Source: a virus. Taken from it: DNA of 24,710 bases. The DNA lies in the IMG/VR virus record IMGVR_UViG_3300028769_000041, positions 1 to 24,710 of that record. One strand, 5' to 3'. Below, piece after piece: positions 1,297 through 24,710 of this stretch (position 1 is its first letter; each line of letters begins with the position of its first letter). Position numbers and translations under genes: made by a program. Below the pieces are notes generated by a model. That model had not been told where the DNA came from, did not search any database, and saw only the letters and a list, made by a program, of their open reading frames with translations.

Positions 1297-3309
1297 TTAC
1301 TGTTCACTGATCGCTCCTAACTGTTCTTTCACTTCCGGTGCAAACTGATATTGTCCTAACTGCTGTTGTAATTCCGGTGGCATTGGTTGTCCTCCCGGTA
1401 TAGGTTGTCCGGCTTGTGCTGCTTCTTTTACTTCGGTTTCGCGTTTGTTGATATAGTTTAGCAATTGATCTTTGAAAGGTAAATCACCGGCTTCAAGCAA
1501 TCCGCGCAAATCCAGTACATTGTTGGTGTCATATCCTTTCAACTGAAACAGTAAATCGTTTTTCATTAATCGGTAAGCGGGTGTATCTGTATTCTCTGAT
1601 ACTGATATTTCCACGTCAATGTTTTTTACTCTGTTTTCGTCGTATAGCAATCGTTTTCCTGATCCCTTGTCGAAAATATAGCGGGTTCCTTTGTAGAATT
1701 GTTGCATCAGTTGTACATTAATCTTGTCCCTGCGGGTTCTGTACGAACTTACGGCTTCAAATATTCCGTTTAAACTGGTAGCTGAGTTCTGACTTTGTTG
1801 TGCATACATCTGCGCGGGTGTTCCGGCCGTTGGTGCCGAACCTTGCAAAGCTCCATACACTCCGCTCACGTTTTCGCTCAAGCGTAAGTACATATTTACT
1901 ACATTCAGTGGAGTAAAGGCTTGCGCTACGGTATTTACATAAGTTGGTACAGGTGAACCAACTCCTTTTGATTTATATGGTATTACCGCATCATAATCAG
2001 TCATTTTACGTTCAATCTCAGCTATACCGCCACTTTCTTCATCAATGGCATCAGATGGCATAAACATCAATGACTTTGCACTGTACTTGGATAGTAGTTC
2101 CGAAATGGCCGAAAGTTTGTTGACTTGCTTTTGTGTATCGATCAGGTCTTTCACGAATGGGTAAACCTTCCCAACAAAGAATTCGTGTATCTCAAAGATA
2201 ATCGGCGGTTTTTCGTGCCAGAATGGATTGATACCTTCGTCCAACACTTCTCCAAATGGGGTCATAAAGTAGTATTTCCAATAACTGGAAGTTCCCCACT
2301 CATACTCAAGCAGTAGCATATCTTCGGGCAAGACTCCCATTCCTGCCTGTTGTTTTATCCGGCGGTTATTCTCGGCGGTTATCTCGTACTCTTTAATTTT
2401 GAAGTCGGGGTAATACTCACCGTTCAGATAGTCGTGAATCCAATAGCACTCACCGCTTTCTTTCCGCCACCCTTCAATTACTCTTCCCATCCCAAAGGCT
2501 TCAATTCCGGGAACAAAGAAATCTTTCTCTAATCGTTGGTCGGTGAACGTCTGTGTCATTTCATACATGCGTTCTTTGTCAGCTCCACGGTAAAAACTGC
2601 GGATCTTCTCAGCACGTACTTTGCTGCCTTTGGAAAACATACCTACAATATCATCTACCGACATATCATAAAAGCAACCCACAAGGCTACAATCTTTGTA
2701 GCGTGGATCCTTCATGGTATTATCTACAAAGAAATTGAAGGGGGAAATGTAATCGTTCACTATGTCACTATCACCATCACGGTTCACGTAGTGGTTCTTA
2801 GTGATCATTAGGCCGGAGATGAGCAGTTGAACCAATTGGGAGTAATCAAACTTCCAAAGTTCATTTTTTCTGTATACTGTATGGAGTGTGGCTGTAAGTA
2901 CATCGCTTTCGGCTTGATGTTCTTCTTTCTGAGCTACGCAAACGGGTAAAGTCTTGTTACTGGACCATACACCCACAATGGTGCGTAAAACGTTGCGTAT
3001 GATATTGTACTGAGATGGTTGTAATCCTTGTTCTATGAATAACTGGCGTTCTGTGATGCGTCGTTTTTTCTTATGATCATACACTGTGTCGCTGTGTTGA
3101 TCGCCATAAACGAATTCTTCATTACGTCTTATATCAGTCCTGAGCTGTGAAAGTGAGTTCCAACAGTTGTAAAACGACATCAATAGGTTTTGTTTTCTTC
3201 CCAGATCGTTGTCTGAAAAATTCTCACTATTGGCTTTCTTACGGTCTTTCTGTGCTGTTTTACCGTACTTCTTTGCGTATGCTGATATATTTCGGTTGGT
3301 TTCTTTCAT
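1297..3309 (-). CDS. Portal protein, P22/crAss-like type
   Basis: A 670-residue protein, a normal length for large podovirus-type portals, which form the dodecameric DNA channel at one capsid vertex. The N-terminus is basic and charged (1-40). Then come QYNIIRNVLRTIVGVWSSNK (100-119) and SPFNFFVDNTMKDPRYKDC (189-207), both typical of the portal stem/wing region of Bacteroidota phages. The C-terminal tail, rich in Q and P (about 635-670), is also common in this family. The gene is read on the minus strand into the structural gene at 1-1213, as in late operons. The large terminase is not adjacent; it lies about 15.7 kb away in the window. No truncation or missing segment is apparent. Confidence 0.85.
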   Translation of the reverse strand: MKETNRNISAYAKKYGKTAQKDRKKANSENFSDNDLGRKQNLLMSFYNCWNSLSQLRTDIRRNEEFVYGDQHSDTVYDHKKKRRITERQLFIEQGLQPSQYNIIRNVLRTIVGVWSSNKTLPVCVAQKEEHQAESDVLTATLHTVYRKNELWKFDYSQLVQLLISGLMITKNHYVNRDGDSDIVNDYISPFNFFVDNTMKDPRYKDCSLVGCFYDMSVDDIVGMFSKGSKVRAEKIRSFYRGADKERMYEMTQTFTDQRLEKDFFVPGIEAFGMGRVIEGWRKESGECYWIHDYLNGEYYPDFKIKEYEITAENNRRIKQQAGMGVLPEDMLLLEYEWGTSSYWKYYFMTPFGEVLDEGINPFWHEKPPIIFEIHEFFVGKVYPFVKDLIDTQKQVNKLSAISELLSKYSAKSLMFMPSDAIDEESGGIAEIERKMTDYDAVIPYKSKGVGSPVPTYVNTVAQAFTPLNVVNMYLRLSENVSGVYGALQGSAPTAGTPAQMYAQQSQNSATSLNGIFEAVSSYRTRRDKINVQLMQQFYKGTRYIFDKGSGKRLLYDENRVKNIDVEISVSENTDTPAYRLMKNDLLFQLKGYDTNNVLDLRGLLEAGDLPFKDQLLNYINKRETEVKEAAQAGQPIPGGQPMPPELQQQLGQYQFAPEVKEQLGAISEQ

Positions 3310-3443: not shown

Positions 3444-3812
3444 ATGAAAAAGAATCCCGAACAACCGCAACAAGCTAACGATGAAATCAAAATCGAAACA
3501 CCTAAACCTACTGCAAAGAAGATTGCAAAGAAGATTAAAACAGGAGGTAGGCAAAAAGGAACACAAAACAAAACAACTGCACAACTTAAAAATGCAGTTA
3601 TGGAACTTGTATGTGATTTTGTATTCGTAAAAATGAAAAACAAAAAGTTTAAAGATAAATTTGAAGCGCTCGATATAGATGTACAATTTGCACTCGTTTC
3701 AAAACTAATTCCTTTCGTTCTTGCCAAACAAACCGAAACTAAAGTAAACCTAGATGAAGAACTCACCAAAGCAGTAAAAGACTCCATGGATAAAATAAAC
3801 TCTATGTTTTAA
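3444..3812 (+). CDS. DUF5681-like DNA-binding protein, candidate small terminase subunit
   Basis: A 122-residue protein with a lysine-rich N-terminus (KKIAKKIKTGG, about 24-35) leading into GGRQKGTQNKTT. This matches the G-R-x-K-G-x-x-N-K-T signature of DUF5681-type proteins, which are often encoded near terminase or portal genes and are frequently proposed as small terminase subunits. The rest is predicted helical and ends in a charged tail. Small terminases bind pac/cos DNA and recruit the large subunit. The gene stands alone on the plus strand beside the portal and has its own terminator at 3874-3905. It is not next to the large terminase at 18971. A general DNA-binding regulator is an alternative. 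The coding call is firm, the role tentative. Confidence 0.6.
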   Translation: MKKNPEQPQQANDEIKIETPKPTAKKIAKKIKTGGRQKGTQNKTTAQLKNAVMELVCDFVFVKMKNKKFKDKFEALDIDVQFALVSKLIPFVLAKQTETKVNLDEELTKAVKDSMDKINSMF

Positions 3813-3830: not shown

Positions 3831-3869
3831 TACTGAGCTTGTCGAAGTAAGTCGAAGTAAGTCGAAGTA
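3831..3869. repeat. Interspersed repeat with tandemly expanded 3' arm
   Basis: TACTGAGCTTGTCGAAGTA (3831-3849) is a variant of the interspersed repeat. Its last ten bases (AGTCGAAGTA) are then repeated in tandem up to 3869, giving three copies of GTCGAAGTA spaced by 10. Confidence 0.85.
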
Positions 3870-3960: not shown

Positions 3961-4183
3961 TCTATTTCTCTCTATTTTAGACTTTTCAACCATTCTAATA
4001 ATTTATTATTCATTCCTAACTACCTAATACAAAGAATATTCCTTTCCATTAATTATGAATTATGAATTAATAATTATGAATTAAATTACAGTTTCTTCCC
4101 CCCAGAGCGTGAATTTCATTCCCGCTTCCTGTTGGGAAGTATAGTACAAGCTACATAGTTTTATAAGTAATCATTATAAGGTT

Positions 4184-4228: not shown

Positions 4229-4251
4229 AAGAAGTCGAAGTGAAGCAAAAA

Positions 4252-4288
4252 AAAAGGAATTGGCTCTATAAAGTAGCCAATTCCTTTT
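4252..4288 (-). terminator. Strong hairpin terminator ending the early minus-strand operon
   Basis: A 14-bp perfect stem AAAAGGAATTGGCT (4252-4265) / AGCCAATTCCTTTT (4275-4288) with a 9-base loop. On the minus strand it is followed by a run of U from the A-tract at about 4247-4255. It lies about 75 bases beyond the stop of the replication initiator gene. It could act on both strands. Confidence 0.8.
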
Positions 4289-4296
4289 ATTAATAT

Positions 4297-4340
4297 ACTG
4301 ATAATCAATTATAGTATTTTTTCTATCGTTGATTATCAGT
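4297..4340. repeat. 12-bp inverted repeat beside the Rep gene, possible origin element
   Basis: ACTGATAATCAA (4297-4308) and TTGATTATCAGT (4329-4340) are perfect inverted copies with a 20-base spacer. There is no U-run, so this is not a typical terminator. It lies 25 bases beyond the stop codon of the gene II/X-like initiator. Rolling-circle initiators usually nick near a hairpin close to their own gene, so this is a candidate nick or binding site; this is inference. Confidence 0.45.
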
Positions 4341-4364
4341 TATTTATATATGCCTTTATGGGCA

Positions 4365-5363
4365 TTATTTACGGGTTATATCATATATACTGAATAACAA
4401 CGAGTTATATTCATTTTCTTGCGGTGAAGTGATTGTTTTAAACCGTCTGCTATCCACTTCATAGTCACGTATAAACTCCCGGATGGTACGGTATTGCTTC
4501 GCAGTTATCTTTCCCTTCTCAAAATCCGCTTTTGTTTGCTCTAAGTACGACTCAGTACCGTTATTGACAATGATACTCGCCCTTTCCACTTCACTCTTAC
4601 GTGCGCCCTTATAGGCTCGTACAGTGCGAAAAAAAAACAGGTCCTTCCAATCAATCCAAAAGTTCTTCACCAGGCGATTTATATTCTCATCCGTAAAGAA
4701 TTTATCACTCCTTTCATTCTTCCTTCGGTATACAGTCTCAATCCGTAGTATGTTTTTTTCCTTAGCAGTATTATCTCCCCTCTCCTCAAGGAGAGGGGTC
4801 GGGGGTGAGGTGCTTCTCTTCTTCTCCTTCATCTCCCACGTCTTATCATAAATTTTGAAGTACCGCCGTATATCCTTATGTTTCTCCGACGTTTTTTGGC
4901 GATTGATCTTATAGTTAGCATCAATAAACATAATCTTGTTTTCTTTGATGTCATTTTTGCGTGGTAGATAGCGTACCAGTTCTATAAAGGTGATAGGGTC
5001 ATAACTCACCGGCATGTTTAGGCCAATTTCAAATAGGACCACCTTTGTTTTCTGTGGAAGCAAACCATTTTCAAACAGCAACATCTCGAAAGCTGCCTTA
5101 GCTTCCGAGATCGTAAATACAGTATCGTTCCTGAGCTGACCGAAATTCCGATCGTTCCAGTACTTATGCAGCGAAGTACTCAGTGTAACCGTGTTATTCT
5201 GTATCTTCACCGATATGCCGGTAAACTTCTTGTAATTAACGCTACTACGATAATCTACCTGTGTACCTCTCTCGTTAGTCCACGACTGCAAATGATGAAT
5301 CTGTGCTAAATGCACACACTCATCATTCGAAACTTTGGCGCGTATGGTTATTTTGTCGAACAA
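4365..5363 (-). CDS. Replication initiator, phage gene II/X (CRI)-like
   Basis: A 332-residue protein beginning MFDKITIRAKV, with GISVKIQNNTVTLSTSLHKY (49-68), VVLFEIGLNMP (108-118), the motif IYDKTWE (171-177) and ILRIETVYRR (205-214). This order (substrate-like beta core, conserved Glu in an E-x-G-x-N segment, Y-D-K-x-x-E, then R-I-E) resembles the gene II / CRI family. That family nicks one strand at an origin to start rolling-circle replication in filamentous phages and related plasmids. It is the last gene of the early minus-strand run and is followed by hairpins. Residues about 184-200 are encoded by an interspersed palindromic repeat (4775-4811) and look like a neutral loop insertion. 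A plasmid-type Rep is the main alternative. No sequence search was possible. Confidence 0.6.
   Translation of the reverse strand: MFDKITIRAKVSNDECVHLAQIHHLQSWTNERGTQVDYRSSVNYKKFTGISVKIQNNTVTLSTSLHKYWNDRNFGQLRNDTVFTISEAKAAFEMLLFENGLLPQKTKVVLFEIGLNMPVSYDPITFIELVRYLPRKNDIKENKIMFIDANYKINRQKTSEKHKDIRRYFKIYDKTWEMKEKKRSTSPPTPLLEERGDNTAKEKNILRIETVYRRKNERSDKFFTDENINRLVKNFWIDWKDLFFFRTVRAYKGARKSEVERASIIVNNGTESYLEQTKADFEKGKITAKQYRTIREFIRDYEVDSRRFKTITSPQENEYNSLLFSIYDITRK
4775..4811. repeat. Palindromic Bacteroidota repeat inserted within the Rep coding frame
   Basis: CCCCTCTCCT (4777-4786) and AGGAGAGGGG (4789-4798) form a near-perfect 10-bp palindrome with a two-base loop, followed by TCGGGGGTGAGG. Read on the minus strand it encodes SPPTPLLEERG (residues 186-196 of the Rep-like protein) without breaking the frame. 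The same peptide is known from translated repeats in Bacteroidota proteins. Confidence 0.8.
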
Positions 5364-6285: not shown

Positions 6286-7131
6286 CTAAATTGTATGTTT
6301 TGTAAATAAATCGTTTTGTTTCTTATCGTAATTCATCCAAATAACCTCCTGCACTTCGCCACTGCGTATATTATTCTTCTTTACCGGAAACTCCACCTTT
6401 CGCCAGTCCTTATACAGTTCGTTGTACAATTCCGAATTGTAACTGCTTATCATGGCCATTCCTTCAATGCTGTGCAGTTTCTCGGATAACTGTATGTGTT
6501 TTTCGGTGCTAAACTCGTACTTGTAATCGTTTTTACTAGCTCGCGTTTCTTCCGGATAGGGTGGATCGCAATAAAAGAATGCTTTCGGAAAATCTACTTT
6601 ATCAATGCAATCCATAAAATCATGATTTATTATCTGAAAATTGGATCTGATTATTTCCGCCACATCATGAAGTTTCTCTATAGCATTGTTCCATTTACTC
6701 ACCGTTTCACCGCCCGCAGCATTTACATGCGATTTAGCCATGTGCCAACCTTTATTTTTTGTCTGTGCACCCAATGAAAAGAAAGATTGTCGTACACGTA
6801 CATAAAACCTACGTGCCTGTTCTATTTTATTGTCGGAGTTTATCCAACAGTTATTATATTCTAACTTACTACATGGTGTTAGTAATAGCAATCGTACAAG
6901 TTCCGACTCATGGTTCCTCAGCACTTCAAAGAAATTGGTGATATCTGCGTTTATCTCGTTGGCCGTTTTAATTACATTCCCCTTGTAATTAATCGATACG
7001 CACATACTTCCTGCAAATACATCTACCAAATGTGTAAAATCATTCGGGAAGTTGGCATACAAATGATCCAACCAGGTGAATTTTCCACCGAAGTAATTAA
7101 ATGCTATTATTTTGTTTGTATTTCCTGACAT
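6286..7131 (-). CDS. dam: D12-class DNA adenine-N6 methyltransferase
   Basis: A 281-residue protein with all main motifs of the Dam/DpnM class. The N-terminal FNYFGGKFTW (11-20) corresponds to the Y-x-G-G-K element. DVFAGSM (37-43) is the AdoMet-binding motif I. FFYCDPPYPE (185-194) is the catalytic DPPY motif. MISSYNSELY (227-236) resembles the C-terminal segment of the class. It would methylate the N6 of adenine at a short target site, which could protect phage DNA from host restriction. No restriction enzyme is encoded next to it, so it looks like an orphan methylase. Length is normal and the catalytic residues are intact. It lies between the NUMOD-type protein and a small acidic protein in the early operon. 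The target sequence cannot be read from the protein. Confidence 0.85.
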   Translation of the reverse strand: MSGNTNKIIAFNYFGGKFTWLDHLYANFPNDFTHLVDVFAGSMCVSINYKGNVIKTANEINADITNFFEVLRNHESELVRLLLLTPCSKLEYNNCWINSDNKIEQARRFYVRVRQSFFSLGAQTKNKGWHMAKSHVNAAGGETVSKWNNAIEKLHDVAEIIRSNFQIINHDFMDCIDKVDFPKAFFYCDPPYPEETRASKNDYKYEFSTEKHIQLSEKLHSIEGMAMISSYNSELYNELYKDWRKVEFPVKKNNIRSGEVQEVIWMNYDKKQNDLFTKHTI

Positions 7132-7567: not shown

Positions 7568-7910
7568 AAGGATCAATAATTTTATAATCTTTTTCAAAAC
7601 TGAATTTCAACCCATATTCTATGGATTTGTCTACTTCTTCCATACATCCGTATGACTCTGTACAACCATTGCACAGGAATATATCTGTACAAATATGTAG
7701 GTTCATTAAGTCCTCATGCAGATACTCCGCTTCAGTAGGTTCACAACCGGCAATTTCCAGAAACGACTTCCGCAACTGATCAGCCAATTCGAAAGGATTA
7801 ATAACCGTATATCCAATCTTCTCAAAATACCATTGCCATGCCAGTGCCGTAGCTCTCTGTTCACGCATATCATATCCTGTCATTGGAATTGAAATGTAAA
7901 TTGTTTTCAT
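7530..7910 (-). CDS. DUF4406 / nucleoside 2-deoxyribosyltransferase-like protein
   Basis: ATG 7910 overlaps the TGA stop of the cytosine methylase as TGATG, so this start is favoured over an in-frame ATG at 7949; it gives 126 residues. The N-terminus MKTIYISIPMTGYDMREQR is the signature of DUF4406, a Rossmann-like family related to nucleoside 2-deoxyribosyltransferases. The second signature, MNLHICTDIFLCNGCTESYGC with a following E, matches the C-terminal part, where the glutamate of the deoxyribosyltransferase fold is expected. Such proteins may act on nucleosides or nucleotides; the substrate is unknown. Coupling to a DNA methylase and an HD hydrolase elsewhere in the operon fits nucleotide metabolism. 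Confidence 0.75.
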   Translation of the reverse strand: MKTIYISIPMTGYDMREQRATALAWQWYFEKIGYTVINPFELADQLRKSFLEIAGCEPTEAEYLHEDLMNLHICTDIFLCNGCTESYGCMEEVDKSIEYGLKFSFEKDYKIIDPYGIIHRTTALNA

Positions 7911-9643
7911 CAAAAAGATAGTATATGCATTATTACTTTTATTGTCCATCCATTACCACACATTCGGTAAATCTGTGTATCTGAGCAAGCCCATATATAC
8001 CAATCAGGTACGGTTTGAAGTCGTGCCACTTCGGTTGGCGTTAGCCGACGAATACGTGACTCAGCATGAAGTACATTATTACCGGCCCAATCATTCGAAC
8101 ATAATACCGTTGGTGATTTTTCGAAGTGGCTACCACCTTTATTAAATCCATGAGATCGTTGTTCAATTTTTACCAATTGTCCGCAACTTTCGTCATCGGT
8201 TGCTGAGCCTGTCGAAGCACCGGTTTTACCGTCTTGTTTCATTCTCACACCTTCATCATGTCGGTAATCGCAGGGGGTAATTATTGCATGTGGTCTTGAA
8301 TCTGTATTCAAACATGGACTTATCCCGTTCGGGTCGTACACTCTATTTTGTTGGTAGGGTTGTACTCCGCCACTTTCTTTGCTAGGGTTAAGTTGTATTA
8401 CCAGGTTATCTTTTTGTACAGTGGTAATCGTATTCGTTTTACCATCTTCTCGTGGCTCCAACTGGCTCACTTCTTTGCGCATGGCCGAAACTTCTCCGGC
8501 TTCGTATTGCTTGCGTATCTGCTTACCATAATCAGTTCGCTTTGGTGTCAAACAAACCACTAAATTATCTTTCTGTACACTCGTTAAGCAGTTTGTTTTT
8601 CCGCTTAAATTTGGTTCTAAGCGTTGAGCTGCTTTAATGTCCGGGTCATTATCTTTGCGTGTTCCGTTTTCGTCAAGTTTACGGCCTACCATCGATACAC
8701 ATATCAAATCCATATCCGAATGATTACCGCCACTGTGCGCTCCGGCTGTGAAACAACTGGCCTTTTCTTGATCGGATTTTGGATTTAGTTGTTTGTCTAC
8801 TTTTACATAAGTATCATCTAATCTACCGGCACCATATTTTATTCCTATGCTACTGCTTTTTGATTCCAAATTATCTTTAACATCAAATTTAAAACCGCAA
8901 CCATTTTTTTGTTTTAAATCACTTCTATTACTTAGATAGTTGAATGTTTTATCACTCAAGTAATACTTCTCCGGCACATCACGTTCCAATACATCCCGCA
9001 GCAAAATACCTTCATCTTTCGGTTGTGGTATGTCGGCATGTAGTTCACCAAACAATCCTACTTGTTTGGTCCGTATATTCGTCCAGTAAATGCGCTTACG
9101 GTTCTGTGCTGATACTAATGCACTATTGATATGTACACCATAAATGCCAATAGCTTCACTAAGTACGCGCTCCCATTTATTCCCCATTTCTACGTTTTCA
9201 AGTAGAAACTTTACATTCGGATTGTACTTGCGTATATCTGTCAGTATTCGCATATACTCCCAGAATAGGTAGCTTTGCCCTTCAAACTCAAAACCTTGTT
9301 CTTTTAGCTCCAAGTATTTTTCAAGGGTATAAATTTCAACATCACATTTCGTTGCCATTCCCTTCCGCTTCCCGGCAAAACTGAACGACTGGCACGGACT
9401 ACCACCCAACAATGCATTCACATACTTCAATTTATTCACATCCACATCCACCACACTACCAAGTTGTATAGTATTCGGGAAGTTGAACTGTGTTTGGGCA
9501 ATAGCATGTTTATCAATTTCACTGGCGTAATACGTTGTAGGAGTTTTCCCAAGCTCAGTAAGTGCTATCTGACCGCAACTCATACCATCAAATAATGATA
9601 GCACTACAAATTCACCTTCTACCGCTTTTTTCTTTTCAATCAT
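7910..9643 (-). CDS. dcm: DNA (cytosine-5) methyltransferase
   Basis: The protein has 577 residues with the motifs of C5 methylases in order. LSLFDGMSCGQIAL (15-28) is the AdoMet motif I. GGSPCQSFSFAGK (80-92) carries catalytic Cys84. LLENV (147-151) is motif VI, and SAQNRKRIYWTN (178-189) is motif VIII. A long variable region follows, then RRLTPTEVARLQTVPDWYIW and YRMCGNGWTIKVI (motifs IX-X). It methylates C5 of cytosine and can shield phage DNA from host restriction. The variable region (target recognition) contains two similar segments, SVQKDNLVV and TVQKDNLVIQL, about 50 residues apart. An interspersed repeat (8201-8219) within this region is read in frame as GASTGSAT. The protein is coupled to the downstream DUF4406 gene by a TGATG overlap. 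Its own partner nuclease is absent. Confidence 0.9.
   Translation of the reverse strand: MIEKKKAVEGEFVVLSLFDGMSCGQIALTELGKTPTTYYASEIDKHAIAQTQFNFPNTIQLGSVVDVDVNKLKYVNALLGGSPCQSFSFAGKRKGMATKCDVEIYTLEKYLELKEQGFEFEGQSYLFWEYMRILTDIRKYNPNVKFLLENVEMGNKWERVLSEAIGIYGVHINSALVSAQNRKRIYWTNIRTKQVGLFGELHADIPQPKDEGILLRDVLERDVPEKYYLSDKTFNYLSNRSDLKQKNGCGFKFDVKDNLESKSSSIGIKYGAGRLDDTYVKVDKQLNPKSDQEKASCFTAGAHSGGNHSDMDLICVSMVGRKLDENGTRKDNDPDIKAAQRLEPNLSGKTNCLTSVQKDNLVVCLTPKRTDYGKQIRKQYEAGEVSAMRKEVSQLEPREDGKTNTITTVQKDNLVIQLNPSKESGGVQPYQQNRVYDPNGISPCLNTDSRPHAIITPCDYRHDEGVRMKQDGKTGASTGSATDDESCGQLVKIEQRSHGFNKGGSHFEKSPTVLCSNDWAGNNVLHAESRIRRLTPTEVARLQTVPDWYIWACSDTQIYRMCGNGWTIKVIMHILSF
8201..8219. repeat. Interspersed repeat variant inside the cytosine methylase gene
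   Basis: TGCTGAGCCTGTCGAAGCA is a divergent copy of the repeat. On the minus strand it encodes ASTGSA in the variable, probably loop, region of the methylase. The frame stays open. Confidence 0.75.
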
Positions 9644-17106: not shown

Positions 17107-17124
17107 TATGTCCAAAAAACAACT

Positions 17125-17146
17125 ATGTACAAGAAATTTTCAAAAC
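17125..17146 (+). repeat. attP right arm repeat A (P' arm)
   Basis: The second copy of the 22-base arm repeat, beginning ATGTACAAGA. It differs from 16863-16884 at two positions (G to A each). It lies inside the region that would code for the longer integrase N-terminus. Confidence 0.6.
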
Positions 17147-17168
17147 GAATTGGCAAACACTGACAATT

Positions 17169-17204
17169 TGCGACAAAATGCGACAAATCAATTGTACGAT
17201 TTTC
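17169..17204 (+). repeat. attP right arm: TGCGACAAA doublet plus repeat B
   Basis: TGCGACAAA occurs at 17169-17177 and 17179-17187, one helical turn apart. ATTGTACGATTTTC follows at 17191-17204, identical to the left arm copy. Direct repeats on both sides of the core are the classic layout of integrase arm sites. Confidence 0.6.
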
Positions 17205-17248
17205 AAAAAGTATCTTTATCTTCATCCGGTTATCCTGAAGCAATAAGC

Positions 17249-18517
17249 ATGAAATTAGCCGTCATACTAGAAACACGCCGGGCGAAAGCGAATGGCAAAT
17301 TCTCCGTAAAAATCAGGTTCAACTTCAAGAACCAGGCCTTTTATGTAAATACCGGTATTGATGTTCCGCAGGAAAATTTCCTTCTGGGTAAAATCATTGG
17401 CTTACCAAAGGCCACTATGATGAATTACATCATATCCCAAAAACTGGAATATACACAAAATGTGCTCGAGGATCTGCAAATGCGTGGACTACTCAAAACG
17501 AAATTCCAAACCGGTACCGAAATAAAACGTTTTATCGAATCGGGTGCTGATGGATATGATGAACTGGATAAGGTGGACCGCATGAAACTGCATTTCAAAA
17601 CCTACACCGAAAACCACTTAAAAAAATATACTTCCAAGTCTTCGGCCGATCAGTACCGGCTTATGCTCAAAAAAGTGGAAGCATTTTGTGAAATCCAAAA
17701 TATATTTATTTCGGATATCACTGTGGGGTGGTTGAAAGATTTTGAAATTTTTTGCGATCAAACGGGTATGTCTACTAATGGAAAGGGAAATTACCTTCGT
17801 GCCATTCGTACTATTTTCAATGATGCTATCGATCGTGATTTAATTAGTCCGGATAAATATCCATTCCGTAAGTTCAAAATTAAAGAAGCTAATACGAAAC
17901 ATAGAAATATCACTTTGAAGGATTTACGCTATATGCTGAATTTCGACTATGAAATGTTTTATGCCGACCTGAAAGAAAATGCAAATAAATATACTTCTGA
18001 ATTTCCAAACGTAAAACGCTACGTCGATCTATTTTTTCTATCCTTCTACTTGTGTGGCCTAAACCTGAAAGATTTGCTATTTTTGAAAAAATCCGATATC
18101 AGGGGTGGTCAGTTATCCATACTTCGTGCTAAAACCGACGAACCTATTATTATTCGTATTGAACCGGAAGCTCAGGAAATAATAAGTCGTTACCCCGGTA
18201 AAAAATACTTACTCGATTTTATGGACACTTATTCTACCGACGATTATAAAAATGTTGAAAGGCGTATGAATACAAACATAAAATTTGTTCTACCATTCAT
18301 TACCGCTTACTGGGGGCGTCACTCGTGGGCAACTATTGCCGGCGAACTGGATATTCCTGATCCTATCATTGAAATCTCACAGGGGCGTAAAATAAAAGGT
18401 ATGTCTGCAACCTATGTAAACCGCAACATAAAAAAGATATCTGAAGCCAACAGAAAGGTGATCGATCATCTTTTCAAAGTGGAGAAAAAGAAAAATTCTA
18501 CTCCTAAAACTGAATAA
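17249..18517 (+). CDS. int: Tyrosine-type integrase
   Basis: The protein has 422 residues from ATG 17249 (MKLAVILETRRAKANGKFSV), the usual start of Bacteroidota integrases. ATG 17108 would add 47 unlike residues that overlap the arm repeats. The order is an N-terminal arm-binding domain (1-75), a SAM-like core-binding domain (about 120-220) and the catalytic domain. In the latter, GRHSWAT carries the Arg-His pair (residues 357-358 from this start), and the nucleophile is Tyr389 in SATYVNRN. The first catalytic Arg is not in the usual place (LCGLNLKDLLFL); some Bacteroidota recombinases such as IntDOT also lack it. It recombines attP with the tRNA-Pro gene of the host. Confidence 0.85.
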   Translation: MKLAVILETRRAKANGKFSVKIRFNFKNQAFYVNTGIDVPQENFLLGKIIGLPKATMMNYIISQKLEYTQNVLEDLQMRGLLKTKFQTGTEIKRFIESGADGYDELDKVDRMKLHFKTYTENHLKKYTSKSSADQYRLMLKKVEAFCEIQNIFISDITVGWLKDFEIFCDQTGMSTNGKGNYLRAIRTIFNDAIDRDLISPDKYPFRKFKIKEANTKHRNITLKDLRYMLNFDYEMFYADLKENANKYTSEFPNVKRYVDLFFLSFYLCGLNLKDLLFLKKSDIRGGQLSILRAKTDEPIIIRIEPEAQEIISRYPGKKYLLDFMDTYSTDDYKNVERRMNTNIKFVLPFITAYWGRHSWATIAGELDIPDPIIEISQGRKIKGMSATYVNRNIKKISEANRKVIDHLFKVEKKKNSTPKTE

Positions 18518-18970: not shown

Positions 18971-21067
18971 TTACCACGCCATTTTCTTACTCTTCACTCC
19001 ACTCACTACTTTTATTTTTGCCGGAATAGGTAATTCATAGCAAATATACAATCCTATCATAGTGGCCATAATCCGGTCATCGTGTTTTCCTTGTTTTGCG
19101 CCTGTCTTACCGTCTTTCTTTGTCTCAAAGGTTCGTGCTTCATTCAATGTTTCTTCGTCTCGCTCTACATATCCCTGCTCACGCAAAATGGCTATGTAGT
19201 TATTAATTACCATTGGCTTGGTACTCTTATTGGTATTAAAACCGTATTTTATGGGCGCACCTTCGCGTATCTTGTCAGCCGGCGTTCTGCTGTACATATT
19301 ATTGTAGTACTCTGCTATGGTATCGAAGATAAATTCCGTTTCGTCTCCATCTGCTGTACTGTCGTAGGTATTACTTTCTACTACCAACAATGCATTATTG
19401 TAATACTTGGCTATCTGTGCAGCTATCCAGATAGTAATATCCTTGTCAATATGCCCGTAGAATAAAGCCACAACGTACGGTTTTTCGCCGTACATCATCC
19501 AGTATCTATCAAAAACTTTTATCACACCGTAGTCAGCTCCTTCGCTTGTTCCGCGCTGTGGATCGAATACTACTACATACCTGTTACTTATTTTCTGAAC
19601 TGTGTCCGGGTATTCCCATACATGCAGTTTATTCACGCCTTTGTGGAAACGTAGCTTCTGATCACCATTCAACACAAAGTTGGTGGCTTCCGTATCTTCT
19701 ACAAAGTTTACTTCTTGTAATATTTCTTTTCGGCGCTTTTGTTCTACTACGGCTATTTCGGGTGCACATTTCGAACTCATGGTACCAACTGCCACCGGTG
19801 GGCAACAATCCGGACGAAGTTTCTCAATATCATCGGCTTTAAATACCGGACTACCTGAATCTTGAAACGCTTCTATATCATCACTGGGGTACTCTTGCTT
19901 CATCTTGCTTTCGCTCGGCATAGTGGCTGCCTTCATTCGTCTCCAGTTCAAATTTTCAAGGGTACAAATTTTTATTTTTGAATTATTATTGTATATGTTC
20001 CATTCATAATCTGTCATTGTAGAAATGAACTCGGCTACCGTTCCCTTTTTCTTTCGGCCATTATGCATGTAATAACTACCGTCGAAAGTTATTTCATACA
20101 TTTTCAGCATAAACCATGGTGCAAATATGGCTCTGTATGCTGTTTCTTCTTTTTTTGCTTTTTGATACTGCTCATAAAAAAAATCGCCGACCCCATTGGC
20201 TGTACTTTCACGTGCTATCATGGTATATGGACCACTTGTTGAAGATGAAATAATAGTTCCCTCCAATGACTCCGGATTATTATTTTCTGTCGATGGATAA
20301 AATGCTTCTTCCGAAAAGTGAATCATTTTTACGTCTTGCGATCGTACACTATCGGGTTCTGTCGCAAATCCTACAGTTATTCTACAACCTCTCTCAGGAA
20401 GTTCTTTTATGTTTTGTGTTCCTCCAAATCCTCGGATGCTAAACTTTACACCATTTATGGCCGGCATATTTGAAATTGATTTTTCATACATCGACCTTAC
20501 ATTAATGGCTGCATCTCTTGTATGGGCGCAAACTACACTATTCCAGTTTTTCCTATGAATGGTTTGAATCCATTTCATAATCATCTGTATCAATGTAGAA
20601 AAACCCATTTGTTTTGCTTTCAGAATTTGCAAAAGTATTTGAATCCCTGCATTTATATCTCCCATTATAATTATTAGAAGCATTCTTTGTGCCGGGTTCA
20701 AAATAAAAGGCCCTAACTCTGCCGTTTCTTTGTCAGGTATTGTCTCGCATGTTACTGCATAAAATTCAAAATCCCATTTATATCGTTCTTCGCATACTTT
20801 CAACCAAAAAAAATCAATTTCTATCTGTGACGGTTTATGCTTCAACTTTTCACGTAATGCTTTTTCAATGCTTCCATGTTTTTTCAGCATAAGTATCGCC
20901 GGATGATTTTCCATCTCCACCGGCATATAAAATGTCCGTGGGTTCTTATCCGCAACCTGTAATACAAACCTATCCCCGCAACAATTCAGACCTGATACCG
21001 GATCATAGTCTTTCTTCTTATCTGCATTCCTGCGGGCATTCTCTTGTATTATCTGTTCAGTTGTCAT
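18971..21067 (-). CDS. terL: Terminase large subunit
   Basis: A 698-residue DNA-packaging motor with ATPase and nuclease domains. The Walker-A-like segment is ILKAKQMGFST (148-158), a deviant form common in terminases. Walker B is VKMIHFSEEAFY (246-257), with Glu253/254 as catalytic candidates. TSGPYTMIARESTANG (276-291) fits the coupling motif. The nuclease part has VVVFDPQRGTSEGADYG (497-513) with Asp501 and Asp511, LLVVESNTYD (559-568) with Glu563, and KHDDRIMA (660-667) with Asp662/663. All are intact. It is the last gene of the right-hand late unit; the TGA or ATG of the zinc-finger gene overlaps its start (21064-21067). A small terminase is not adjacent. Confidence 0.9.
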   Translation of the reverse strand: MTTEQIIQENARRNADKKKDYDPVSGLNCCGDRFVLQVADKNPRTFYMPVEMENHPAILMLKKHGSIEKALREKLKHKPSQIEIDFFWLKVCEERYKWDFEFYAVTCETIPDKETAELGPFILNPAQRMLLIIIMGDINAGIQILLQILKAKQMGFSTLIQMIMKWIQTIHRKNWNSVVCAHTRDAAINVRSMYEKSISNMPAINGVKFSIRGFGGTQNIKELPERGCRITVGFATEPDSVRSQDVKMIHFSEEAFYPSTENNNPESLEGTIISSSTSGPYTMIARESTANGVGDFFYEQYQKAKKEETAYRAIFAPWFMLKMYEITFDGSYYMHNGRKKKGTVAEFISTMTDYEWNIYNNNSKIKICTLENLNWRRMKAATMPSESKMKQEYPSDDIEAFQDSGSPVFKADDIEKLRPDCCPPVAVGTMSSKCAPEIAVVEQKRRKEILQEVNFVEDTEATNFVLNGDQKLRFHKGVNKLHVWEYPDTVQKISNRYVVVFDPQRGTSEGADYGVIKVFDRYWMMYGEKPYVVALFYGHIDKDITIWIAAQIAKYYNNALLVVESNTYDSTADGDETEFIFDTIAEYYNNMYSRTPADKIREGAPIKYGFNTNKSTKPMVINNYIAILREQGYVERDEETLNEARTFETKKDGKTGAKQGKHDDRIMATMIGLYICYELPIPAKIKVVSGVKSKKMAW

Positions 21068-23491: not shown

Positions 23492-24710
23492 TTATAAATC
23501 AGCGATTATATTAGTGAACTCATTCCAATACGGTGCTGCTTGATAGGATGCTAGTGATCCTACTGCTACGTGAAGTGGTATTGTTTTATTTACATTATAA
23601 AATGTATTTGAAAATATAATTTGTGGAGTTGATATCATATTATTAATTAATATCAACCCTATACAATTGTAAAATGCTGAATCTCCAATGGAAACAACTG
23701 AATTTGGTATTGTCAAATTTCCATTAAATCCAGTACATCCAATAAATGCAAGATTTCCGATTGAAGTAACTGAATTCGGAATTATCAAATTACCAGTTAA
23801 TCCAGAACAAGTATAAAAAGCATAATTTCCAATTGAAGTAACTAAATTTGGAATTGTAAAATTACCAACAAATCCTATACATCCTGCAAATGCTGCGTCT
23901 CCAATCGAAGTAACTGAACTCGGTATTATCAAATTACCAGTTAATCCAGAACAATTCTGAAATGTATTATTTCTAATTAATGTAATTGAATTCGGAATCG
24001 TTAAATTTCCAGTTAATCCATAACAGTTGTAAAATGCTGAATCTCCAATGGAAGTGACTGAACTTGGTATTATTAAATTTCCAATTAACTCAGAACAATT
24101 ATAAAAGGCTAAATTTCCAATTGTAACGACCGAATTTGGAATCGTCAAACGTCCATTAAATCCGGTACATCCAATAAATGCAAGATTTCCGATTGAAATA
24201 ACTGAAGTAGGTATTATCAAATTACCTGTTAATCCAGAACAAGTATAAAAGGCAGAATTTCCAATTGAAGTAACTGAATTTGAGATTGTCAAATTACCAT
24301 TTAATCCTGTGCATCCTGAAAAGGCCCCATCTCCAATCGAATTAACTGAACTCGGTATTATCAAATTACCAGTTAATCCAGAACAATTCTGAAATGTATA
24401 ATTTCTAATTAATGTAACTGAATTCGGAATTATTAAATTTCCAGTTAATTTTGAACAATTGCAAAATGCAAAATTTCCAATTGAAGTAACTGAACTAGGG
24501 ATTATTAAATTACCATTAAATCCTGAGCAGTCTTGAAATGTAAGGTTTCCAATTGTAGTAACTGAACTCGGTATTATCAAATTCCCAATTAATCCGGAAC
24601 AATTTATAAATGAAACATATCCAATTGTAGTAACTGAACTCGGAATTGTCAAATTACCAGTTAATCCATAACAGTTGTAAAATGCAAAATCTTCAATTAA
24701 ATTCAAACAG
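23492..24710 (-). CDS. BspA-like leucine-rich-repeat protein, tail/adhesin, 5' end outside window
   Basis: The frame is open to the right edge, so the N-terminus lies outside the window. At least 14 tandem 24-residue repeats follow the pattern (N/D)-x-x-F-x-x-C-x-G-L-x-G-N-L-x-I-P-x-S-V-T-x-I-G, the LRR_5/BspA type. The C-terminal cap, VAVGSLASYQAAPYWNEF, is usual for this family. BspA-like proteins bind host surfaces or extracellular matrix; in a phage late operon the likely role is tail fibre or receptor binding. DNA is repetitive with a 72-base period and a 432-base higher-order unit. Codon use looks more AT-rich than the neighbours. It stands 10 bases before the holin gene. Confidence 0.8.
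   Translation of the reverse strand, partial: CLNLIEDFAFYNCYGLTGNLTIPSSVTTIGYVSFINCSGLIGNLIIPSSVTTIGNLTFQDCSGFNGNLIIPSSVTSIGNFAFCNCSKLTGNLIIPNSVTLIRNYTFQNCSGLTGNLIIPSSVNSIGDGAFSGCTGLNGNLTISNSVTSIGNSAFYTCSGLTGNLIIPTSVISIGNLAFIGCTGFNGRLTIPNSVVTIGNLAFYNCSELIGNLIIPSSVTSIGDSAFYNCYGLTGNLTIPNSITLIRNNTFQNCSGLTGNLIIPSSVTSIGDAAFAGCIGFVGNFTIPNLVTSIGNYAFYTCSGLTGNLIIPNSVTSIGNLAFIGCTGFNGNLTIPNSVVSIGDSAFYNCIGLILINNMISTPQIIFSNTFYNVNKTIPLHVAVGSLASYQAAPYWNEFTNIIADL

Follow-up and report, generated by a model that had tools for sequence, protein, structure and literature searches.

Organization of the rep locus

The window, by which we mean the whole stretch of DNA analysed here, is a 24,710-bp virus record whose genes for a P22-like portal, a large terminase and a tyrosine integrase (Table 1) mark its owner as a temperate tailed phage. 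A contig of 49,463 bp (G001) is 99% identical to it over 23.4 kb and encodes the same Rep protein at 100%. The rep reading frame is open from a TTG start, with ATG, GTG or TTG used at the same place in homologues, and its product contains the segments FKIYDKTWE and LRIETVYRR, as the preliminary description of this DNA had reported. Beyond the rep stop lie two short boxes, an intrinsic terminator and a hairpin element (4095-4159, minus strand); the next gene, whose product has weak PHROGs matches only, to PHROGs of unknown function, is convergent to rep, so that the hairpin element sits between two 3' ends.

Table 1. Coordinates of rep, the neighbouring DNA elements and the phage genes of the window
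Feature	Position	Strand	Basis or remark
Rep, putative rolling-circle replication initiator, 332 aa	4365..5363	-	Foldseek matches 4cwe/4cwc/4cij and inovirus G2P; invariant catalytic residues
TGATAATCA box 1, inverted-repeat arm, possible Rep-binding site	4330..4338	-	conserved in relatives
TGATTATCA box 2, other inverted-repeat arm	4299..4307	-	conserved in relatives
Intrinsic terminator of early (rep) operon	4249..4291	-	17-nt inverted repeat, then T run
GCTTGTACTATAC, unpaired strand 5' of hairpin, proposed nick region	4139..4151	-	conserved to about 30% Rep identity
Hairpin 1 (CTTCC/GGAAG)	4125..4139	-	compensatory changes across family
Alternative long stem, CTTCCC 4139-4134 / GGGAAG 4100-4095, enclosing inner hairpin 4106-4126	4095..4139	-	
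TCTAAAATAGAGAGAAATAGA, second conserved element with doubled AAATAGA core, after origin hairpin	3961..3981	-	podovirus branch only
122-aa conserved gene, convergent to rep	3444..3812	+	homologues beside portal in G002-G005, L026
P22-like portal	1297..3309	-	PF16510 E=5.5e-31
Tyrosine integrase	17108..18517	+	PF13102 E=5e-18, phrog_1
Large terminase	18971..21067	-	phrog_24361 terminase E=2e-14
GAGCTTGTCGAAG / GAGCGTAGTCGAAG repeats	1236, 3841-3861, 3953, 4220, 4234, 7158, 11005, 14220, 14528, 14552	one strand	

A family of Rep proteins in Bacteroidota phages

Searched alone, the Rep protein found no usable match in Pfam, PHROGs, NCBIfam or PDB sequences, and none in the genome contigs scanned with it. 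The first homologues came from a faecal phage record that carries no annotation and from a plasmid of Phocaeicola massiliensis; 18 viral contigs followed, together with two genomes of Bacteroidota. Surveys of Bacteroidota genomes returned relatives at 6 of 301 (family of genome G019), 9 of 200 (family of genome G020) and 8 of 395 (a draw from the phylum), counts that include some distant relatives. The family was found in more than 20 distinct Bacteroidota phages or prophages, at identities from 74% down to about 30%. Rep and 17 relatives have no direct match in Pfam or PHROGs, and a search of 50,697 phage records gave a single Rep match, itself without annotation; as things stand, such phages therefore give the impression of lacking a replication gene. 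A literature search, in which few subscription journals were covered, returned no description of the family in tailed phages.

Fold and superfamily placement

An AlphaFold2 model was built from 16 Rep homologues, two rows from annotated records being excluded (pLDDT 84, pTM 0.79). Against the PDB, Foldseek placed only RepDE (4cwe, E=1e-8; 4cwc) and RepSTK1 (4cij, E=1e-4) below E=0.001, each with probability 1.00 and at modest TM-scores (0.36-0.50); the solved structures of this Rep_trans class have a mutual identity of only 13% (PMC4797284). Among the predicted viral proteins of BFVD, the top named matches are inovirus G2P/Rep proteins (G2P E=8e-8). A sequence bridge runs through a distant family member, L086, which the family profile (A2) reaches at E=1e-12 and which itself passes the gathering cut-off of Phage_CRI (2.6e-9), with Rep_trans a weak second.

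The preliminary description had assigned Rep to the gene II/CRI initiators and named a profile search as one check. Neither Rep nor any of the 17 relatives matches PF05144 (Phage_CRI) or PF02486 (Rep_trans), L086 alone passing the former; a PDB profile search from 18 Rep sequences gave chance matches only, and hhalign of the family against nine gene II proteins aligned the motifs collinearly at a score that is not significant (probability 1.7%, E 0.03). Direct sequence evidence is thus weak, and the assignment stands at the level of the superfamily, through the fold, the L086 bridge and the catalytic residues, and falls for direct membership of Phage_CRI. On the predicted model and the conserved residues, Rep is supported as a rolling-circle initiator of gene II/Rep_trans type.

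Within rep, a GC-rich palindromic repeat at 4776-4810 (CTCACCCCCGACCCC...CTCTCC type) is carried in frame and adds an SPPTPLLEERG-like peptide; it falls in a low-confidence loop of the model between the YDK and RIE motifs, and nearly the same peptide occurs there in a relative (L009).

Active site

The class to which these structures belong is recognised by an N-terminal Asp, motif I (RxD), motif II, motif III (YxKxxE) and motif IV (RxE); the motif III tyrosine is the nucleophile, three carboxylates bind metal and there is no HUH motif (PMC4797284, PMC5714925). The reference residues are Y191, K193 and E196, with metal ligands D46/D142/E214 (PMC4797284). Only ten columns are invariant across 12 widely divergent Rep family members (D3, S64, K67, N79, E112, G114, Y172, K174, R207 and E209), and E177 is invariant in the alignment of 18 members. 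Motif III reads Y172-x-K174-x-x-E177, and L-R-x-E209 resembles motif IV of Rep_trans/Phage_CRI. Motif I RxD is absent in the family, which has FEIG (E112) instead, so that D3, E112 and E209 take the places of the three carboxylates (D, D, E) with one D replaced by E. By position in the alignment, the N-terminal Asp, the acid of motif I (as Glu), motif III and motif IV are among the invariant columns.

The predicted model puts each of D3, E112, Y172 and E209 on a different strand, with E177 in the helix directly after the tyrosine strand, as described for RepDE. We propose Y172 as the nucleophile and D3/E112/E209 as metal ligands, with K174 and E177 alongside. HUH-like active residues, which had been suggested as something to look for, do not occur: the family alignment has no HUH motif and no invariant histidine, and the superfamily likewise lacks HUH (PMC4797284).

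A conserved hairpin element follows rep

An inverted repeat at 4297-4340 had been described next to the rep stop as a place where a nick site could be. The repeat is present (arms 4297-4314 and 4323-4340, 18 nt, 89% complementary) and is more than a chance feature, since both arms are boxes that recur in relatives: 30 TGATAATCA/TGATTATCA boxes occur between rep and the hairpin element in 23 loci, where shuffles gave a mean of 1.9 and a maximum of 7 (n=300). Because they recur at this place in most relatives and so far above expectation, the boxes are probably functional, perhaps as sites for Rep or a regulator. As a nick site the repeat was rejected; it is less conserved and less structured than the element at 4095-4159 (minus strand), about 150 nt further on, which is the conserved, structured and rep-linked one.

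This element consists of an unpaired CTTGTMCTATAC followed by a hairpin, and its consensus across relatives is RCTTGTMYTATACNNCC, then the hairpin. Folded as single-stranded DNA, the window copy is 4.9 s.d. better than shuffles (z = -4.9). In the family alignment 89.8% of stem cells are paired and 15 cells are altered on both sides, each value being reached in 0 of 500 shuffles; one position varies as T-A, A-T and C-G and the next as T-A, G-C and G-T, and sliding the partner destroys the pairing signal. Hairpins are imperfect in some relatives. A covariance model matches the window at 4115-4159 (E=1e-7) and finds one match per phage genome, beside rep, the weakest true match being 4.5e-5 and the next 0.79.

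The element is on the rep strand; its distance from the rep stop is about 115-215 nt in most relatives and about 60 nt in L103. Nearly every relative has it behind rep, and this holds to an identity of about 30%. L091 has a diverged copy, GCTTGCCTTATGCCTGCCAGAGCAGGC, missed by the covariance model and recognisable by eye only; L086, from another branch, has no element. The element shows the arrangement looked for in a double-strand origin, a conserved, rep-linked candidate nick region beside a hairpin. In the podovirus branch the TCTAAAATAGAGAGAAATAGA element was found in 9 of the 9 loci tested. The element motif has CAACTTG in common with the phiX174 nick region, and agrees at 15 of 19 bases, in our own alignment, with the IncP oriT nick region; the IncP sequence used was confirmed to be present in IncP-type plasmids, and both resemblances are possibly convergent.

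Linkage of the element to rep across phage backbones

Scanning 2.9 million viral contigs with two 18-base versions of the motif returned 19 contigs, 18 of which encode Rep just upstream. Twelve were already known rep carriers; in six of the seven new ones the motif is closely preceded by a gene for a Rep relative in the same orientation, and the seventh (L063), having neither stem nor rep, looks like a chance match. The covariance model also finds the element behind rep in seven loci outside the model, all from relatives that later protein searches brought up (L082, L083, L085, L088, L090, L096 and L103), and in L084, which has an element identical to one of those the model was built on.

The rep-element pair accompanies a P22-type portal in the window and an HK97-type portal, capsid and TerL in the Bacteroides branch (in L017, TerL PF03354/PF20441 and portal PF04860), so it appears to travel as a module. 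Bacteroides-branch phages have a DUF3127 gene directly beside the element; its product is possibly a single-stranded DNA-binding protein, for which a literature search found no confirming paper. Several relatives have, in the neighbourhood of rep, genes like the pcfJ and pcfK of conjugative plasmids (L011 667-2070, L036 85-477, L017 6049-7332).

Other replication genes and GC skew

The preliminary description saw no other replication protein in the window, and this was borne out: no helicase, primase or polymerase was found among the proteins scanned in the window or in G001, and none was recognised among 45 early proteins of two further relatives (G003 and G004). Host enzymes would therefore extend a nicked strand. 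The related genomes scanned are 48-54 kb long and may be incomplete; in G004 both ends fall inside what seems to be one giant gene, the pattern expected of a circularly permuted genome. The early region of one of them, G003, has genes for a DnaN-type sliding clamp and for a reverse transcriptase (L036 489-1592 and 1887-2882), the latter possibly part of a diversity-generating element. G001 encodes a polyvalent protein of 4265 aa (L006 51-12848) with pyrophosphatase, ADP-ribosyltransferase and methyltransferase-like domains.

Cumulative GC skew, proposed as a further check, runs in one direction across all five related genomes, the rep strand always being G-rich. This is consistent with unidirectional copying; there is no switch at the element, and the signal is confounded by gene orientation.

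Proposed replication mechanism and alternatives

Homology, fold, a conserved active site, a conserved and covarying hairpin and its tight linkage to rep are the basis on which we regard Rep as the likely replication initiator of this temperate tailed phage, with 4095-4159 (minus strand) as its double-strand origin. We infer DNA nicking by Rep, the exact nick position and rolling circle as the main replication mode. Rep would bind the origin region, perhaps at the TGATAATCA boxes, the hairpin or both; the CTTGTMCTATAC strand would be exposed beside the extruded hairpin, and Y172, with metal held by D3/E112/E209, would nick it and remain attached to the 5' end. From the 3' end, synthesis around the circle would then fall to host helicase and Pol III, possibly aided by the phage's own DnaN-type clamp in one relative and, in the Bacteroides branch, by the product of the adjoining DUF3127 gene. 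Such copying could give concatemers for terminase. Given the recurrence of the rep-element pair in otherwise different tailed phages, rolling circle is the probable mode of DNA copying in these viruses; host primase and helicase could support another replication mode, and the element could bind Rep for some purpose other than origin function.

Rep might instead be a rolling-circle-type nickase with the job of a relaxase, as MobT/Orf20 has in Tn916, and the element an oriT that mobilises the prophage. The likeness of the motif to the IncP nick region and the PcfJ/PcfK-like genes near rep in some relatives would suit this reading. Rep_trans does include such relaxases (PMC4797284). Against it, neither a coupling protein nor a further relaxase was seen, rep belongs to the early operon of portal-, terminase- and integrase-bearing genomes with no other recognised replication gene, and in Bacteroides-type phages a DUF3127 gene directly adjoins the element; we consider mobilisation improbable. 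Slightly less credit still goes to a packaging site (cos or pac), which could be suspected in the podovirus branch from the position of the element between rep and the portal operon and from the second conserved motif nearby. The same element accompanies differing terminase and portal types (window versus L017), its spacing from rep stays constant, motif-first scans show it going together with rep, and its presence in HK97-type as well as P22-type backgrounds argues for a mobile rep-origin module instead. That the hairpin works as RNA, as a leader or 3'-UTR regulator, is the least probable of the three: its 3' arm overlaps an AAGGAGG ahead of the next gene in several Bacteroides-type phages, whereas in the podovirus branch the element lies past the rep terminator, facing the end of a convergent gene, and so leads no transcript and has no co-directional gene to regulate.

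Relation to known initiators

With inovirus gene II proteins (Phage_CRI; M13 pII) Rep shares its fold and the order of motifs (N-terminal D3, S..K, YxKxxE, RxE), besides the Pfam match of L086; it differs in lacking a direct profile match, in its length with a helical C-terminus of its own, in its occurrence in 48-54 kb dsDNA tailed phages and in the proposed nick-region sequence. Rep_trans (pT181 RepD/RepE, RepSTK1; Tn916 Orf20) provides the best PDB matches and agrees with Rep in Y-x-K-x-x-E and in the order of the three carboxylates, whereas Rep has E112 for the motif I RxD, no Pfam match and a differently laid-out origin hairpin. Among tailed phages, the best-known rolling-circle initiators are P2-like HUH proteins; P2 gpA is such a protein, in a tailed dsDNA phage that replicates by rolling circle from a Rep-cut site. 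The same mode is proposed here, with a family of the Rep_trans/CRI class, which lacks HUH.

The one replication gene recognised in these temperate tailed phages comes from a non-HUH class of initiators otherwise characteristic of filamentous phages and small plasmids. We lean towards the broader view that this initiator and its hairpin origin form an unrecognised Rep_trans/CRI-class module, on which various temperate tailed phages of Bacteroidota chiefly rely for replication and which has moved between podovirus and HK97-type backbones, linking filamentous- and tailed-phage replication. The hosts are Bacteroidota, including gut Bacteroides and Phocaeicola, and the Rep family with its short conserved candidate origin offers a marker for finding such phages and a means of building Bacteroidota replicons.

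Additional features of the window

The early operon also encodes two DNA methyltransferases (6286-7131 and 7910-9643; adenine D12 type and C5-cytosine type), and an internally repetitive BspA-type leucine-rich repeat protein occupies the right end of the window (23492-24709). Short GAGCTTGTCGAAG and GAGCGTAGTCGAAG repeats, all on one strand, are scattered over the window and through G001.
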